NCBI RefSeq assembly: GCF_000429465.1
Contig: NZ_AUBX01000010.1
Span: 620,001-684,000, forward strand
Source: Algoriphagus vanfongensis DSM 17529
GTDB lineage: Bacteria > Bacteroidota > Bacteroidia > Cytophagales > Cyclobacteriaceae
Length of the DNA stretch: 64,000 nt
Direction: 5' to 3'
Numbering within the stretch: position 1 is the stretch's first letter; each line of letters starts with the position of its first letter. The notes under the pieces are model-generated. The model was not told the origin of the DNA. It made no database searches and saw nothing but the letters and a program-made list of their open reading frames with translations. Shown one piece after another: positions 11,925 to 16,393 of this stretch. A program made the position numbers and the translations under genes.

Positions 11925-11969
11925 TTAGACAAAAGTCAACTAAACTTTATGAACTCGGTCATATATTTG
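11925..11969 (+). promoter_or_regulatory. Promoter of the MbnP/diheme operon with CRP-like dyad
   Basis: TATATTTG (11962-11969) is an exact TAnnTTTG -7 element. A dyad GAC-AAAA-GTC is centred at 11932.5, 36.5 bp before the final G. The same spacing is found at four sulfur-gene promoters in this window, and the core GACAAAAGTCA is identical to the reverse of the dyad before the CstB-like gene. Predicted RNA start is about 11974, only three bases before the first ATG of the operon. Confidence 0.55.
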
Positions 11970-11976
11970 CCGTCAA

Positions 11977-12351
11977 ATGCTAAAAAGCCTCACTTATATT
12001 ACCCTTGCGATGATGATGATTCTCAATAGCATGGTGTATTCGGTGATCAAGGTCAACTTCACGATCAACCAAAAATACATCATTGAGAATTTTTGTATCA
12101 ATCAGGACAAACCTGAGCTAAAGTGTGATGGAAAGTGTTTTTTGGCGGAAAAAATCCAGGCAGAGAAAGAGCGTCAAGAGTCTCTTCCTGCATTTTCCTT
12201 CAATAAAGACTTTGGCGTTTTTGTTCCCACAGAAGCTTCTCAAGATTCCTTAGAATTGACATTTAAGGCTTTTTTGGAGCATCAGGAAACGTATCACATT
12301 GCGTTTAGCCAAGCTGCAACTTGTTCAATCGACCACCCTCCCAAGAGTTAA
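11977..12351 (+). CDS. Small membrane-anchored cysteine protein, function unknown
   Basis: 124 residues: a hydrophobic N-terminal segment (about 5-25) that would anchor or export the protein, then C40, C50 and C54 in CINQDKPELKCDGKC, then a charged helix. The C-x9-C-x3-C pattern suggests metal or disulfide chemistry outside the membrane. It is first in an operon with two diheme lipoproteins, MbnP and a beta-barrel, so a copper or electron-transfer role is an inference. The promoter leaves practically no leader before this ATG; methionines 12-14 or 19 are alternative starts, but would remove part of the anchor. Confidence 0.7.
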   Translation: MLKSLTYITLAMMMILNSMVYSVIKVNFTINQKYIIENFCINQDKPELKCDGKCFLAEKIQAEKERQESLPAFSFNKDFGVFVPTEASQDSLELTFKAFLEHQETYHIAFSQAATCSIDHPPKS

Positions 12352-12396
12352 TTCCCTTTCTGAATTAATTCAATTTCCCTATTACAAAAATAGATT

Positions 12397-13515
12397 ATGC
12401 GATCTCTTATCCGCTACGCGGGTTGGATGATGGCTGGTGCATTGTTGTATTCCTGTGGTGAGAGTGAATCCCCTGTTGCGCAAGGGCCCACTCCTATTTC
12501 CTTGGAAAAACCCGACTATTTCTCGGATCAGCAAGCCATGCCATCAGACAACCCCCTGACGGAGGAAGGAGTGCGTCTGGGCCGTATGCTTTTTTATGAG
12601 AAAAAGCTATCCCAAGACGGCACCATTTCCTGCTCCTCTTGTCATCAGCAAGAAAAAGGATTCAGTGATGGTCTTCAAGTCAGCCCTGGAGTCAATGGAA
12701 CTCTTGGGACAATGAACGCCATGGCTTTGTCCAATCTTCACTGGCAAACCCGTTTCTTTTGGAATGGTAGAGCTGTATCCTTAGAAGAACAGGCACTGCT
12801 TCCTATTGAAGACTCGCTGGAGATGAATCTCCCTTTAGATGAGGCTATCTCCAGACTTCAGGATGATCCGGACTATCCGGAGTTATTTCAGGCTGCCTTC
12901 GGATCTGACCAAGTGACTTCAGAAACTATCGGCAAGGCACTGGCACAGTTTGAAAGGACACTTATTTCGGCCAATTCCAAATTTGACAAGTGGATTCGTG
13001 GCGAGGTAGAACTTAGTCCCGAGGAAGAATTGGGACTAGAACTGTTCTTCACCCATCCAGAACCCTCCATTCAGCTCAGAGGCGGCAACTGCGGAGATTG
13101 CCACTTAGGTTTTCTGACCTCAGGAGACCCCAATGGTATCGCTGGCTTTCACAACAATGGCTTGGACTCAGATGAAAAGTTAAAGTCCGGGCTGGAGTTT
13201 GTCACAGGCAATCCATTTGACAAGGGAAAATTCAAAGCACCGGGACTTCGAAATATTGCGTTGACTGCACCCTATATGCATGACGGGCGATTCTCGACTC
13301 TCGATGAAGTGCTCGACCATTACAATGAGCATATCCAAAATAGCGAAACCTTAGATGTCCTCATTTTGGAAGCCAGTAACGAAGCACTAGATCCTTCCAA
13401 ACCAATCAAACTTTACCTATCAGCAGAAGAGAAGCAAGCAATCATCGCATTTCTTCATACGCTGACAGATGAAGAGTTTGTTTCCAATCCAAAATTTTCA
13501 AATCCATTTAATTAG
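12397..13515 (+). CDS. MauG/MbnH-type diheme lipoprotein (cytochrome-c peroxidase family), copy 1
   Basis: Periplasmic di-heme enzyme of 372 residues. A lipobox LLYSC puts the lipidated cysteine at residue 20. Heme sites are CSSCH (79-83) and CGDCH (232-236). The conserved C-terminal block LTAPYMHDGRFSTLDEVLDHY is present. Family members either reduce H2O2 or, like MauG and MbnH, use it to oxidise a partner protein. Immediately downstream is MbnP, the substrate of MbnH, which converts a tryptophan to kynurenine; by context the MbnH role is favoured, but a plain peroxidase cannot be excluded. Confidence 0.88.
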   Translation: MRSLIRYAGWMMAGALLYSCGESESPVAQGPTPISLEKPDYFSDQQAMPSDNPLTEEGVRLGRMLFYEKKLSQDGTISCSSCHQQEKGFSDGLQVSPGVNGTLGTMNAMALSNLHWQTRFFWNGRAVSLEEQALLPIEDSLEMNLPLDEAISRLQDDPDYPELFQAAFGSDQVTSETIGKALAQFERTLISANSKFDKWIRGEVELSPEEELGLELFFTHPEPSIQLRGGNCGDCHLGFLTSGDPNGIAGFHNNGLDSDEKLKSGLEFVTGNPFDKGKFKAPGLRNIALTAPYMHDGRFSTLDEVLDHYNEHIQNSETLDVLILEASNEALDPSKPIKLYLSAEEKQAIIAFLHTLTDEEFVSNPKFSNPFN

Positions 13516-13525
13516 AAAAATCACA

Positions 13526-14248
13526 ATGAAAAATATATCCTACCTATTCCTTGCAGTCCTTTTTGCCTTTGCTTCCTGTGACAAAGAAGACGAAACTCCC
13601 GCTCAAATGAATGTGGAAATCACATTTGAAAACACATTGAACGGGAACCCTCTTGAGCTCAATCAAGAAAACTTCACGTTGCCTTCTGGGGAGCCATTTA
13701 TGGTGAAAAAATTCAAATACTACATCTCCAACGTGGTATTGACCGATACGGAATCAGCTACTCAATACATAGAAAACGACAGCTACCACCTGTTGGGTCA
13801 GGATTTCAACTCCGTCATCGATTTGGGAATGATTCCATCTGCCAATTATGACCAGATCACTTTTTCGATCGGAGTGGATGAAGTGGCCAATTCTAGGACT
13901 GATCAGACCGGCGATCTAGATCCCAACAATGACATGGCCTGGAACTGGAATTCAGGCTATAAATTCGTCGTTTTGGAAGGTGAGTTTACGCATCAGTCAA
14001 CTCAGGAAAGAACTGGCTTGATATTCCATATCGGAACGAACTCAAATTATGCTACTGTCACCTTGCCGCTTTCGGGAGTGATGGCAGGCAAAGCAAGTTC
14101 TATCGCTCTGGAAACGGCCATTGATGAGCTTTTCTCCAACCCCAACATCCTTGCTCCAAGCAACATGGCCAGCACGACGGTCATGGGAGGCCCAGTGGCA
14201 GACCAGATTGGTCAAAACTATGCGGAAGGATTCATAAAGGCTAACTAA
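13526..14248 (+). CDS. MbnP-family copper-binding lipoprotein
   Basis: 240 residues, start chosen at the ATG that gives a signal peptide with lipobox FAFASC (C18); an upstream extension would overlap the diheme gene. Family features: N-terminal NVEITFENTLNG, KKFKYYISN, YHLLG (H88), SIGVDE, and WNWNSGYKF with W139 and W141, followed by EGEF and FHIG (H168). In MbnP and the related MopE/CorA proteins, a tryptophan oxidised to kynurenine together with histidines binds Cu(I). Two MbnH-like diheme genes flank it. Which tryptophan is modified here is not known. Confidence 0.82.
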   Translation: MKNISYLFLAVLFAFASCDKEDETPAQMNVEITFENTLNGNPLELNQENFTLPSGEPFMVKKFKYYISNVVLTDTESATQYIENDSYHLLGQDFNSVIDLGMIPSANYDQITFSIGVDEVANSRTDQTGDLDPNNDMAWNWNSGYKFVVLEGEFTHQSTQERTGLIFHIGTNSNYATVTLPLSGVMAGKASSIALETAIDELFSNPNILAPSNMASTTVMGGPVADQIGQNYAEGFIKAN

Positions 14249-14254
14249 TTCAAT

Positions 14255-14280
14255 TTCCCCGAGGAAATCTCCTCGGGGAA
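14255..14280 (+). other. GC-rich hairpin between mbnP and second diheme gene
   Basis: TTCCCCGAGG and CCTCGGGGAA form a perfect 10-bp stem with loop AAATCT, in the 40-nt gap between the two coding regions. No long T-run follows (only TCTTT), so it is more likely an RNA-stability or partial-attenuation element than a full terminator. Confidence 0.65.
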
Positions 14281-14288
14281 TCTTTCCA

Positions 14289-15359
14289 ATGAAAAAGCAG
14301 GCCTTTACATTATCTGTTTTCATCACCTTGTTTTGGGCATGTACGGACCTGAGTCAGCAAGAGACTAGAGTAGAAACAGCTCCTGAGCTCTATGTACCGC
14401 CTATTTCCACAACACTGAATGTCGGAAGCTTTCCTCAACCGGAAAGGAATCCCATGTCCCAAGAAGGGGTTTTGTTGGGGAAAAAGCTCTTCTTTGACCC
14501 TAATCTGTCTGGCAATGGCAAAGTCTCCTGCGCCACATGCCATCAGCCTCAATTGGCCTTTACGGATGGGGTAGCCTTGGGAGATCATGGAGTGACTGGG
14601 GCAAAATTGGACAGACATGCTCCTCCCCTTTTCAATTTAGCCTGGAACACCAACGGTCTATTCTGGGATGGTGGAGCCCATGATTTGGAATCTCTGAATT
14701 TTGGACCACTTACCCATCCAGATGAAATGGGTGCTGATCTAAATGCATTATTGACCTATTTGAATCAGGAGGATGAATACCTGGATTTGTTTGAAAAAGC
14801 CTTTCCAAAATCCCCCATTCAAAGTGCTTCCATTAGCCAGGCAATCGCGCAGTATACCCGCACCCTGATTTCACAGACTTCCCGCTATGATCTCTGGAAG
14901 AATGGAAAAACAGAGCTCAGCTCACTAGAAATCAAAGGCTATAAAATCTATCAAGCTGCTTGCGCAAGTTGTCATGAGGAGGGCCTTTTTACAGATCAGG
15001 AGTATCACAATAATGGACTGGATGAAAGCTATCCCGACCCTATTGATAAAGAGGGGATATTTCTGGGAAGATTCCGGATCACTCAAGACTCCTTGGACCT
15101 GGGAGCTTACAAAACTCCCAGCCTTCGAAATGTCACCTTGACAGCGCCTTACATGCACGATGGTCGATTCGCTACTTTGGAAGAAGTGCTGGACCACTAT
15201 TCTTCAGGAATCCAGCAAAACAGCTCTCTTGCTCCCCAATTAAAGGGTGGAATTCCTTTGAATGCAGAGGAGAAACAAGCCTTGATCACTTTTCTCCAAA
15301 CACTCCAAGACGATCAGTTTATTCAACATCACCAGCAGGACAACCCTGATTTACCATGA
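14289..15359 (+). CDS. MauG/MbnH-type diheme lipoprotein (cytochrome-c peroxidase family), copy 2
   Basis: 356 residues with lipobox LFWAC (C18), heme motifs CATCH (81-85) and CASCH (225-229) and the block LTAPYMHDGRFATLEEVLDHY. It is a clear but diverged paralogue of the diheme gene on the other side of mbnP. The two could act on different residues or partners, or one may be a true H2O2 peroxidase. Its stop overlaps the next start by four bases (ATGA), so translation of the barrel protein is coupled to it. Confidence 0.88.
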   Translation: MKKQAFTLSVFITLFWACTDLSQQETRVETAPELYVPPISTTLNVGSFPQPERNPMSQEGVLLGKKLFFDPNLSGNGKVSCATCHQPQLAFTDGVALGDHGVTGAKLDRHAPPLFNLAWNTNGLFWDGGAHDLESLNFGPLTHPDEMGADLNALLTYLNQEDEYLDLFEKAFPKSPIQSASISQAIAQYTRTLISQTSRYDLWKNGKTELSSLEIKGYKIYQAACASCHEEGLFTDQEYHNNGLDESYPDPIDKEGIFLGRFRITQDSLDLGAYKTPSLRNVTLTAPYMHDGRFATLEEVLDHYSSGIQQNSSLAPQLKGGIPLNAEEKQALITFLQTLQDDQFIQHHQQDNPDLP

Positions 15360-16393
15360 AAAAACACATACTTACCCTCCTATTTCTTGGACTCTTATCC
15401 CAATCCAATCCTTCATTTGCATGCGATAGCTGCAACTTCTTTGAATATAGCCTCTTAGAAAATAAGAGTTATTTCGGTCTATTCTATAGATTCAGGGATT
15501 TTCAGGATTACAAAAACATAGCTCCAGCTACAACGACTACAATACAAAGTTACCCTTCCCAACTTAGTACCCAACTGATGCCTTGGGTTGACAACGAAAT
15601 CATGCATGAACCGGAGGGAAACAACTTATATGTCCAGAAGACAAAGCAGGACTTTGAAACCTATCAAACCATAGAGGCGAGAGGAAACGTCACTCTGAAT
15701 TACAAATGGAATTTGACTTTCCTATTGCCTTATGAATTCAACAAAGTTTATTATGAAAAATACCTAGACCTTCCCAACCCAGTATCCGATACCACACTTT
15801 ATGTACAGGGATGGGGAGATTTAACCACTGCAGTAGAATATATCCATTTGATATACAACACTAAATCCAGACATACTTTTCGGCCAGGACTCGCGCTCAC
15901 AGCACCTACCGGTCAAGCCCAAATCCAATCCAATAATGAAAACAAAGATTTGTTTGATCCAATTATCCAACCTGGAAAAGGCGCATTTTCCTTTATCCCC
16001 CGGATAAATTACCAGTGGTTTTTGGAAGATCATGGCATCAATGCAGGCATCAGCTACCAATGGAGCACAGAAGGAAAGCAATCCTATCAATTCGGCAATT
16101 CCTTAAATGCCTACCTGCTTTACTTCCATCAGTTTGCTCTTGGTGAAAGCATTCTCCTAGCTCCCAACGTGGGGATCTACCATGAAAGTGCTCAAATGGA
16201 TCGGTATAGCGGAGAAAAACAGGAACTGACCGGAGGGCAAGTGGATTTTGCGCAGCTTGGACTAGATATCAACCTCGCTCAAACGACACTTTCTCTGATT
16301 TACCAATCTCCCATCAATCAAAATCTAAATGGAAACCAGATTCTCAATCAACATAGAATTAATATAGGACTCATCCGAAATTTCAAATTGTAG
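15356..16393 (+). CDS. Outer-membrane beta-barrel protein of the MbnP operon
   Basis: 345 residues: signal peptide ending PSFA, then an early CDSC motif at the mature N-terminus, then alternating polar/aromatic strands ending in a typical outer-membrane C-terminal segment (INIGLIRNFKL). It resembles the MetA-pathway/transporter barrel families in layout. Position at the end of the diheme-MbnP operon suggests metal or ligand passage across the outer membrane, with the CDSC pair possibly binding metal. This is inference; a structural barrel of unknown role is the safe description. Confidence 0.7.
   Translation: MKKHILTLLFLGLLSQSNPSFACDSCNFFEYSLLENKSYFGLFYRFRDFQDYKNIAPATTTTIQSYPSQLSTQLMPWVDNEIMHEPEGNNLYVQKTKQDFETYQTIEARGNVTLNYKWNLTFLLPYEFNKVYYEKYLDLPNPVSDTTLYVQGWGDLTTAVEYIHLIYNTKSRHTFRPGLALTAPTGQAQIQSNNENKDLFDPIIQPGKGAFSFIPRINYQWFLEDHGINAGISYQWSTEGKQSYQFGNSLNAYLLYFHQFALGESILLAPNVGIYHESAQMDRYSGEKQELTGGQVDFAQLGLDINLAQTTLSLIYQSPINQNLNGNQILNQHRINIGLIRNFKL

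Follow-up and report, generated by a model that had tools for sequence, protein, structure and literature searches.

Why should a single MbnP be encoded between two different diheme enzymes? This question is raised by a locus of Algoriphagus vanfongensis DSM 17529, which lies in a stretch of 64,000 nucleotides (contig NZ_AUBX01000010.1, positions 620,001 to 684,000 of the forward strand); this whole stretch is called the window, and positions are counted from its first letter. The first-pass annotation of this DNA had described a set of five genes, and all of them are indeed present and open as close-packed open reading frames (ORFs) at 11977-16393, all on the + strand and in the order of C-H1-P-H2-B: namely, a small Cys protein (C), a diheme lipoprotein of the MauG/MbnH type (H1), an MbnP lipoprotein (P), a second diheme lipoprotein (H2), and an outer-membrane barrel (B). 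The gene calls were made with a custom ORF script, not with a trained gene finder. The operon is real, recurrent, and made of known kinds of parts, and the presence of two enzymes for one MbnP is unusual. Our answer, which we hold to be rather probable, is that the locus is a copper-responsive MbnP/MbnH operon of two merged modules, in which H2 most plausibly also acts on P. As far as we have searched, the two-enzyme variant, the module history, and the assignment of C as a leader are new.

The protein P (13526..14248, + strand; 240 aa) is an MbnP by profile and fold. It matched PF20243 with an E-value of 3.7e-45 and 154.6 bits (gathering cut-off, 27), and the closest named MbnP record is that of Algoriphagus zhangzhouensis (88%). 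The start was taken as 13526, and the ORF tool puts it at 13469; the lipobox, FASC, was read by eye, and its Cys is the only one in P, whereas the name of the PDB entry 7l6g, MbnP of Methylosinus trichosporium, mentions a four-Cys motif. When the AlphaFold2 model of P (predicted local distance difference test score, pLDDT, 82.4) was submitted to Foldseek, the top six matches were the six chains of 7l6g (E 4.6e-8 to 9.3e-7), with the seventh match at 0.042; furthermore, VIA-align gave a Z of 16.0 for 7l6g (204 residues, 3.5 Å) and 5.7 for the next entry. A phmmer search of P against the PDB yielded one chance match only, and a profile of P relatives aligned with 7l6g at E 0.18, which is weak on sequence alone. 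In this alignment, D-M-A-W-N-W-N-x-G-Y-K-F...H-I-G falls over G-M-A-W-N-W-Q-A-G-R-R-F...H-V-G, with W139 of P on GMAWNWQAG and H168 on the His residue of MVHVGS.

The two tryptophans pointed out in the first-pass annotation are found in the motif M137-A-W139-N-W141-N-S-G-Y (codons of M137 to W141 at 13934..13948, + strand). The copper site of 7l6g comprises a kynurenine derived from the first Trp of WxW together with Met and His; carried over to P, these roles make W139 the predicted position of the kynurenine and M137 and H168 (codon at 14027..14029, + strand) the predicted Cu(I) ligands; by analogy, we infer Cu(I) binding and a kynurenine at W139 in P. The conservation of these residues was examined in 117 MbnPs, which comprised 42 from two-enzyme loci (including six copies of a second MbnP, P', described below), 20 from loci with only H1, 17 from loci without any enzyme, and 38 from loci with H0, a single enzyme found throughout the phylum; twelve rows (five of a small enzyme group, Hc, five with diheme fragments, and two with only H2) were left out. 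Throughout the four groups, W139 is kept in 117/117, W141 in 116/117, and H168 in 112/117; H168 is found in 39/42, 20/20, 17/17, and 36/38 of the respective groups, with Glu in the remaining five, and M137 in 40/42, 19/20, 17/17, and 12/38. In the MbnP rows of the Hc group, the first Trp is kept and the second is not.

Flanking P, as had been claimed, are two diverged diheme genes, H1 (12397..13515, + strand; heme motifs CSSCH and CGDCH, lipobox LYSC) and H2 (14289..15359, + strand; CATCH and CASCH, lipobox FWAC), with both lipoboxes read by eye. H1 and H2 matched PF03150 with E-values of 2.2e-59 and 2.7e-54, respectively, and the closest PDB match of H1 is 6e1c (E 4.9e-62), MbnH of M. trichosporium OB3b. 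Heme-associated residues (inter-heme Trp, distal Glu, and axial Tyr/Met) were tabulated for 56 H1, 40 H2, and 34 H0 rows. Both CxxCH motifs are kept in all three sets, with one H2 row lacking one Cys of the second motif; the inter-heme Trp is kept except in one H0 row, and the distal Glu and the axial Tyr (at the position of Met275 of Pseudomonas aeruginosa CcpA) are also kept. A second Trp shared with 6e1c is found in all H1 and in 39/40 H2 rows and is replaced by Phe in nearly all H0 rows. Judging from these residues, both H1 and H2 are intact enzymes of the MauG/MbnH type, for which tryptophan oxidation is predicted.

In phylogenetic trees, H1 formed a clade of 56 rows (support by the Shimodaira-Hasegawa-like approximate likelihood ratio test, SH-aLRT, 99) that also includes the enzymes from 14 loci of Pseudomonadota (Ruegeria, Colwellia, Simiduia, and others). 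The H2 clade consisted of 40 rows from Bacteroidota (98; 99 in a second tree) and was sister (94) to H0 (53 rows, 100). Diheme ORFs shorter than 290 aa, labelled H?, were omitted from the trees; these include possible H2 copies in L138, L139, and L143 (L numbers denote loci), and the count of loci with H1 and without H2 is thus an upper figure. Recent tandem duplication of one diheme gene was rejected as the origin of the pair, given the separate supported clades and the two Pontibacter loci in which the order is H2-H1-P and the identities of the enzymes are kept. A third MauG-like diheme gene of the A. vanfongensis genome (L167:7672-8799; on C2 near 88 kb) forms a long branch that belongs to none of H1, H2, and H0; its surroundings include a gene for a DUF4876 protein and a TonB-receptor gene recognized by eye, and no MbnP was found within the 17 kb read.

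A survey of operon conservation, which the first-pass annotation had suggested, found the two enzymes together repeatedly. In the family of the host, 65 of 148 genomes (own genome included) have PF20243 matches; the spread is patchy, with no match in three congeners sampled (G082, G130, and G336). We compared 60 stretches around the stronger, not all, family matches and 70 named loci, which after removal of repeats gave 123 distinct loci, three of them without an MbnP ORF called by the script. At 36 of the 123, both an H1-clade and an H2-clade enzyme are present, and the arrangement is therefore not a matter of chance. Two-enzyme loci with H1, P, and H2 occur in Algoriphagus, Echinicola, Cyclobacterium, Pontibacter, Marivirga, and others, and their orders are C-H1-P-H2-B (15), H1-P-H2 (12), C-H1-P-H2-B-C-P' (2), C-H1-P-P'-H2-B (2), H2-H1-P (2), and H1-P-H2-B, H1-P-C-P'-H2-B, and H1-P-P'-H2 (once each). 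Of the 17 MbnPs without a diheme gene at the locus, furthermore, eight genomes were taken, and an H1-clade enzyme was found elsewhere in 8/8 (clade support 92) and an H2-clade enzyme in at least five (99), not every diheme place having been fetched; P, H1, and often H2 thus appear to be kept together even when scattered. At the phylum level, an enzyme is directly behind P in 40/40 of the strongest places fetched, and the exact order of C-P-H-B was read by eye in 19. Another kind of two-enzyme neighbourhood was noticed in L169 and L177, where an H1-clade enzyme directly follows a canonical locus of the C-P-H0-B or P-H0-B type, and L199, from a distant member of Bacteroidota, has a tandem P-H-P-H of two MbnP-enzyme pairs, with the enzymes outside H2 and H0.

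How the two enzymes came together is suggested by the second MbnP, P', which is present at 6/36 two-enzyme loci and, together with H2, at the H1-less loci of two further genomes (L035 and L071). The P' rows were first picked as the second MbnPs of these loci and then put to trees. In a tree of 129 MbnPs, P' formed a clade of eight rows (SH-aLRT 95), every one of which is from a locus with an H2-clade enzyme; in a larger tree, six of the eight were beside the canonical MbnP clade of H0 loci (97; join 88), and a constraint keeping all eight together was not rejected (p-value of the approximately unbiased test, p-AU, 0.708). B is present at 21/36 two-enzyme loci and 33/34 H0 loci, whereas of the 20 loci that have H1 but lack an H2-clade enzyme, a single one carries B, and a diheme fragment is found there. 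Most of the Pontibacter sampled are without B. From the occurrence of P', the gene orders, and the trees, the locus looks like two merged MbnP-MbnH modules, and the simplest history would be the joining of [H1-P] and [P'-H2-B] with a later loss of P'. H1 would then go with P, and H2 with a P' that is absent from the A. vanfongensis genome. Indeed, this genome has a single MbnP by both PF20243 and the P' profile, which rules out a P' hidden elsewhere; profile matches of P' occur in 98/395 Bacteroidota genomes. A single MbnP was also the rule in 17/21 of the named two-enzyme genomes searched, including all eight named Algoriphagus, with L114, L116, L119, and L121 standing outside this count. In five of the eight P' rows (L041_11, L115_10, L117_9, L035_6, and L071_12), Glu (ETG or EIG) takes the place of the site His, and P' may thus hold another metal or none.

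The link of the operon to copper comes through C (11977..12351, + strand; 124 aa). The first-pass annotation had described C as an anchored protein with C-x9-C-x3-C; the motif is there (C40, C50, and C54), behind an N-terminus that is hydrophobic by eye, but a regulatory leader fits better than an anchored copper protein. C ends with IDHPPKS and has no match in Pfam or NCBIfam, DUF2946 included, at E up to 1. Among 103 distinct relatives of C, Pro-Pro within the last 14 residues is found in 101, a count that may be slightly inflated because the family was gathered by a profile containing the C-terminal end; in controls, terminal Pro-Pro was found in 19/1346 larger genes, 11/393 small genes, 0/192 H, 1/171 P, and 0/87 B. 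The Cys motif is matched in 97/103 and, in the relatives with both measured, lies 62-70 aa ahead of the Pro-Pro, the stretch in between being poorly conserved; the C-terminal consensus is I-F-H-P-P (51, 57, 55, 98, and 100%). A structural copper protein was rejected as the identity of C, as conservation is largely limited to the Cys motif and the terminal Pro-Pro. The same-strand gene after C (103 cases) is P in 58, H in 19, another C in 12, B in 3, and other in 6, with none such in 5. The C family is present in 118/296 Bacteroidota genomes and at 29/34 H0 loci; at 28 of 30 C loci read, the next gene is P (11), H (1), B (2), or other (14), and a scan of seven genes behind C gave three TonB-receptor starts, two YtkA-like proteins, and one porin-like protein.

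Upstream of C, TATATTTG (11962..11969, + strand) matches TAnnTTTG, the -7 promoter consensus of Bacteroidota. It is 7 nt before the ATG, and the C transcript would thus be nearly leaderless. TAnnTTTG occurs within 60 nt upstream of 45/103 C genes and of 159/1730 other genes (≥150 aa), and its distance to the ATG is 4-9 nt in 32 of the 45; the closest relatives, L091 and L092, have TATATTTA in its place. Like CutF of Rhodobacter and CruR (DUF2946) of Bordetella, C is shorter than 150 aa, has a hydrophobic N-terminus, a Cys motif, and a C-terminal Pro-Pro, and is the first gene of a (here predicted) copper operon; unlike them, it has no DUF2946 match, shows I-F-H-P-P and not RAPP, and has a near-leaderless start in part of the family. 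By analogy, C is probably a CutF/CruR-like copper-sensing leader with a regulatory role and a predicted arrest, and its resemblance to such ORFs ties the operon to copper. CutF-like leaders are reported to be numerous in Bacteroidota (a survey; PMC9973294), CruR operons to include MbnPH-like genes (PMC9426467), and the RAPP/RGPP leaders of copper genes to be lacking in Bacteroidota (a 2025 survey; PMC12992588); C would be a testable copper-sensing switch in a phylum reported to be without RAPP/RGPP copper leaders, in which CutF-like proteins have nevertheless been counted. Behind other C leaders, His- and Met-rich barrels were noticed that are possible copper channels (L039:10004-10912 and L214:2051-3082).

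The five genes had been proposed to form a full copper capture system independent of methanobactin. The identity of MbnP, the two intact enzymes, and the copper link via C are in favor of part of this proposal, and a scan of ten window proteins, beyond which the genome was not searched, found no methanobactin gene (MbnB/MbnC); C, in turn, is probably not a part of the capture machinery. In the scheme that we favor, C would be made at the 5' end of the transcript, sense copper via its nascent chain, and set the downstream expression, as suggested by CutF and CruR. H1 would oxidize W139 of P to kynurenine with H2O2 and thereby complete the Cu(I) site with M137 and H168, presumably as in the MbnP/MbnH pair of Methylosinus; in the loci from Pseudomonadota, no diheme gene other than H1 was seen next to P, which makes H1 the likely kynurenine former. 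H2 and B would derive from the second module, as the gene orders and trees suggest, and H2 would now also work on P, adding a second oxidation or backing up the first; this is the least certain step of the scheme, and a division of labour between the two enzymes, as the first-pass annotation had suggested, is conjectural.

What speaks for H2 acting on P is, first, its retention. In the nine Algoriphagus-type genomes without P', H2 is kept under purifying selection: the ratio of nonsynonymous to synonymous substitution rates (dN/dS) is 0.07-0.09 in the five of nine Algoriphagus pairs where it was computable, with dS near or past saturation in these pairs. A degenerate H2 was rejected in view of this low dN/dS and the kept catalytic residues. 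As H2 persists at loci that have lost P' and have no B, P is its likeliest partner, although the apparent tie of H2 to MbnP partly reflects that H2 was sought at MbnP loci. We tentatively suggest, as a possibility that is on balance doubtful, that H1 and H2 act in turn on P with two different oxidative modifications (e.g., at W139 and then at W141 or a nearby aromatic residue). If this is true, P would carry a doubly modified copper site, unlike any MbnP known to us, and H2 would have been re-aimed from P' to P after the loss of P'. Few MauG-type enzymes remodel a partner protein; given genomes with one or two enzymes, linked or unlinked, and one or two MbnP partners, the pairing of enzyme and substrate, and with it what sets the substrate, becomes testable.

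Several observations weigh against this account. The scores in NCBIfam are below the cut-offs, namely 57.2 bits for P (TIGR04052, cut-off 140) and 279.7 and 224.3 bits for H1 and H2 (MbnH, TIGR04039, cut-off 362.85), and we therefore read P, H1, and H2 as diverged members of a wider family; MbnP relatives from Cognaticolwellia and Ruegeria (33.1 and 53.4 bits) and enzyme relatives from Cognaticolwellia, Ruegeria, and Echinicola are also below them. The enzyme 6e1c was outside H1, H2, and H0 in two trees and beside the small Hc group in another, so that the trees do not mark out H1 or H2 in particular as its counterpart. As for P', the two rows from Marivirga grouped in the larger tree with one from L199, a locus with no H2-clade enzyme, and P' joined the other side weakly (79) in the 129-MbnP tree; its placement thus has only moderate support. 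No residue of P clearly separates two-enzyme from H1-only loci in the 117-row table, and a second modification site was therefore not found; D126 and Y108 occur more often where H2 is present, a pattern that follows phylogeny. Partial correlations of gene distances at the 36 loci (P-H1 given H2, 0.615; P-H2 given H1, 0.526; H1-H2 given P, 0.183) are compatible with each enzyme tracking P, yet the same values would be expected if P were just the cleanest clock of the set. At the 14 Pseudomonadota loci, finally, no second diheme gene was found in the fetched stretch, the genomes there not having been searched for an unlinked H2.

This last observation, by which H2 is perhaps unneeded for the site of P, leads to the alternative that H2 does not modify P and works as a conventional H2O2 peroxidase or as an electron partner, guarding the envelope or feeding or draining H1. 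Diheme peroxidases are indeed the parent family (PF03150), and H2 is not confined to MbnP loci, as five genomes encode it away from any MbnP within the 3.4-3.7 kb fetched. The axial residue is nonetheless Tyr and not Met in 40/40 H2 rows, and the second Trp of 6e1c, mostly missing in H0, is present in all H2 rows but one; we consider this alternative unlikely. Still less likely, in our estimate, is that the metal is not copper or that the system serves resistance and not capture. There is no uptake receptor in the operon, and a survey (PMC9973294) reports CutF-like leaders for several metals, mostly before efflux genes and then before TonB-type and PCuAC genes; in the same source, leaders with Cys motifs are mostly copper-linked, and the M-x-W-x-W motif and the His of P match those of the copper protein 7l6g.

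The view of H2 as a remnant of the P'-H2-B module that is itself being lost in the wake of P' would agree with the absence of P' from most of the two-enzyme genomes searched and with a protein change in H2 about twice that of H1 in the Algoriphagus pairs; the low dN/dS, the catalytic residues kept in 40 or 39 of the 40 rows, and the retention of H2 at 30 distinct two-enzyme loci that themselves carry no P' make it improbable. Equally hard to favor is a role of H2 in modifying B or another envelope protein in place of P, for which the 4-nt overlap of the H2 and B ORFs in the window and the presence of B at 21/36 loci would speak, since H2 occurs without B at 12 H1-P-H2, 2 H2-H1-P, and 1 H1-P-P'-H2 loci and the H2-B correlation drops to 0.164 given P (21 loci with B; a weak test).

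B itself (15356..16393, + strand) has no match in Pfam or NCBIfam at E up to 1, and its model (pLDDT 75.6) consists mostly of strands, in line with the barrel with a CDSC start that had been described; C23-D-S-C26 is just behind a signal-like N-terminus, and the CDxC cysteines are invariant in 15/15. A structure search gave the COG4313 channel 4rl8 first (E 4.9e-11) and FapF next; the barrel fold is alike, but B differs from 4rl8 in its CDxC start and by an identity of 14%. From the model, B may be a COG4313-type channel that has a pair of CDxC thiols close to its N-terminus and might let copper or a ligand through the outer membrane.

Compared with MbnP/MbnH of M. trichosporium OB3b, the operon is alike in the MbnP fold, the MAWNW motif with the His residue, and the axial-Tyr enzymes of the MauG type, but differs in having two enzymes per MbnP, lipoproteins, a CutF-like leader, and a barrel. 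The single-enzyme cassette of Bacteroidota, C-P-H0-B, shares four kinds of genes with it, the leader and the CDxC barrel included, whereas its one enzyme belongs to the separate H0 clade, and part of its MbnP family shows W-F-W-N-W without Met. Our literature search, which mostly did not extend to subscription journals, found no report of two MbnH-type enzymes at one MbnP. In the methanotroph systems CorA/CorB and MopE/SACCP, a copper protein is likewise beside a diheme peroxidase, and a tryptophan of MopE is changed to kynurenine; the copper-protein sequence there is reported not to be markedly MbnP-like (PMC3621798), and one enzyme is present.

Between the genes, the gap from C to H1 is 45 nt, the structure of which is weak in the window (-2.1 kcal/mol), and the gap from P to H2 contains a GC-rich hairpin (14255..14280, + strand; 11 bp, -21.0 kcal/mol). 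When the P-H2 gaps of eight of the nine Algoriphagus-type loci were folded (the 17-nt gap of L096 was left out), energies of -13.1 to -21.0 kcal/mol were obtained in seven and -43.1 kcal/mol in the longer gap of L093; across these eight, the structure is kept and the sequence is not. This intercistronic hairpin could set the ratio of P to H2-B. Upstream of the operon are genes for a glycosyltransferase and an FkbM methyltransferase, and downstream, on the opposite strand, is an AraC regulator. In two other genomes, a DUF3050 gene is located between P and H2 (L043:7228-7923 and L051:8673-9440); that of L043 matched PF11251 (E 7.7e-95) and, more weakly, a haem-oxygenase family, and that of L051 looks alike. 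Also, Met-rich small proteins of similar appearance (IHDEVMPxM...MMxWM; L043_9, L051_6, L039_11, and L229_4) adjoin MbnP or C genes.

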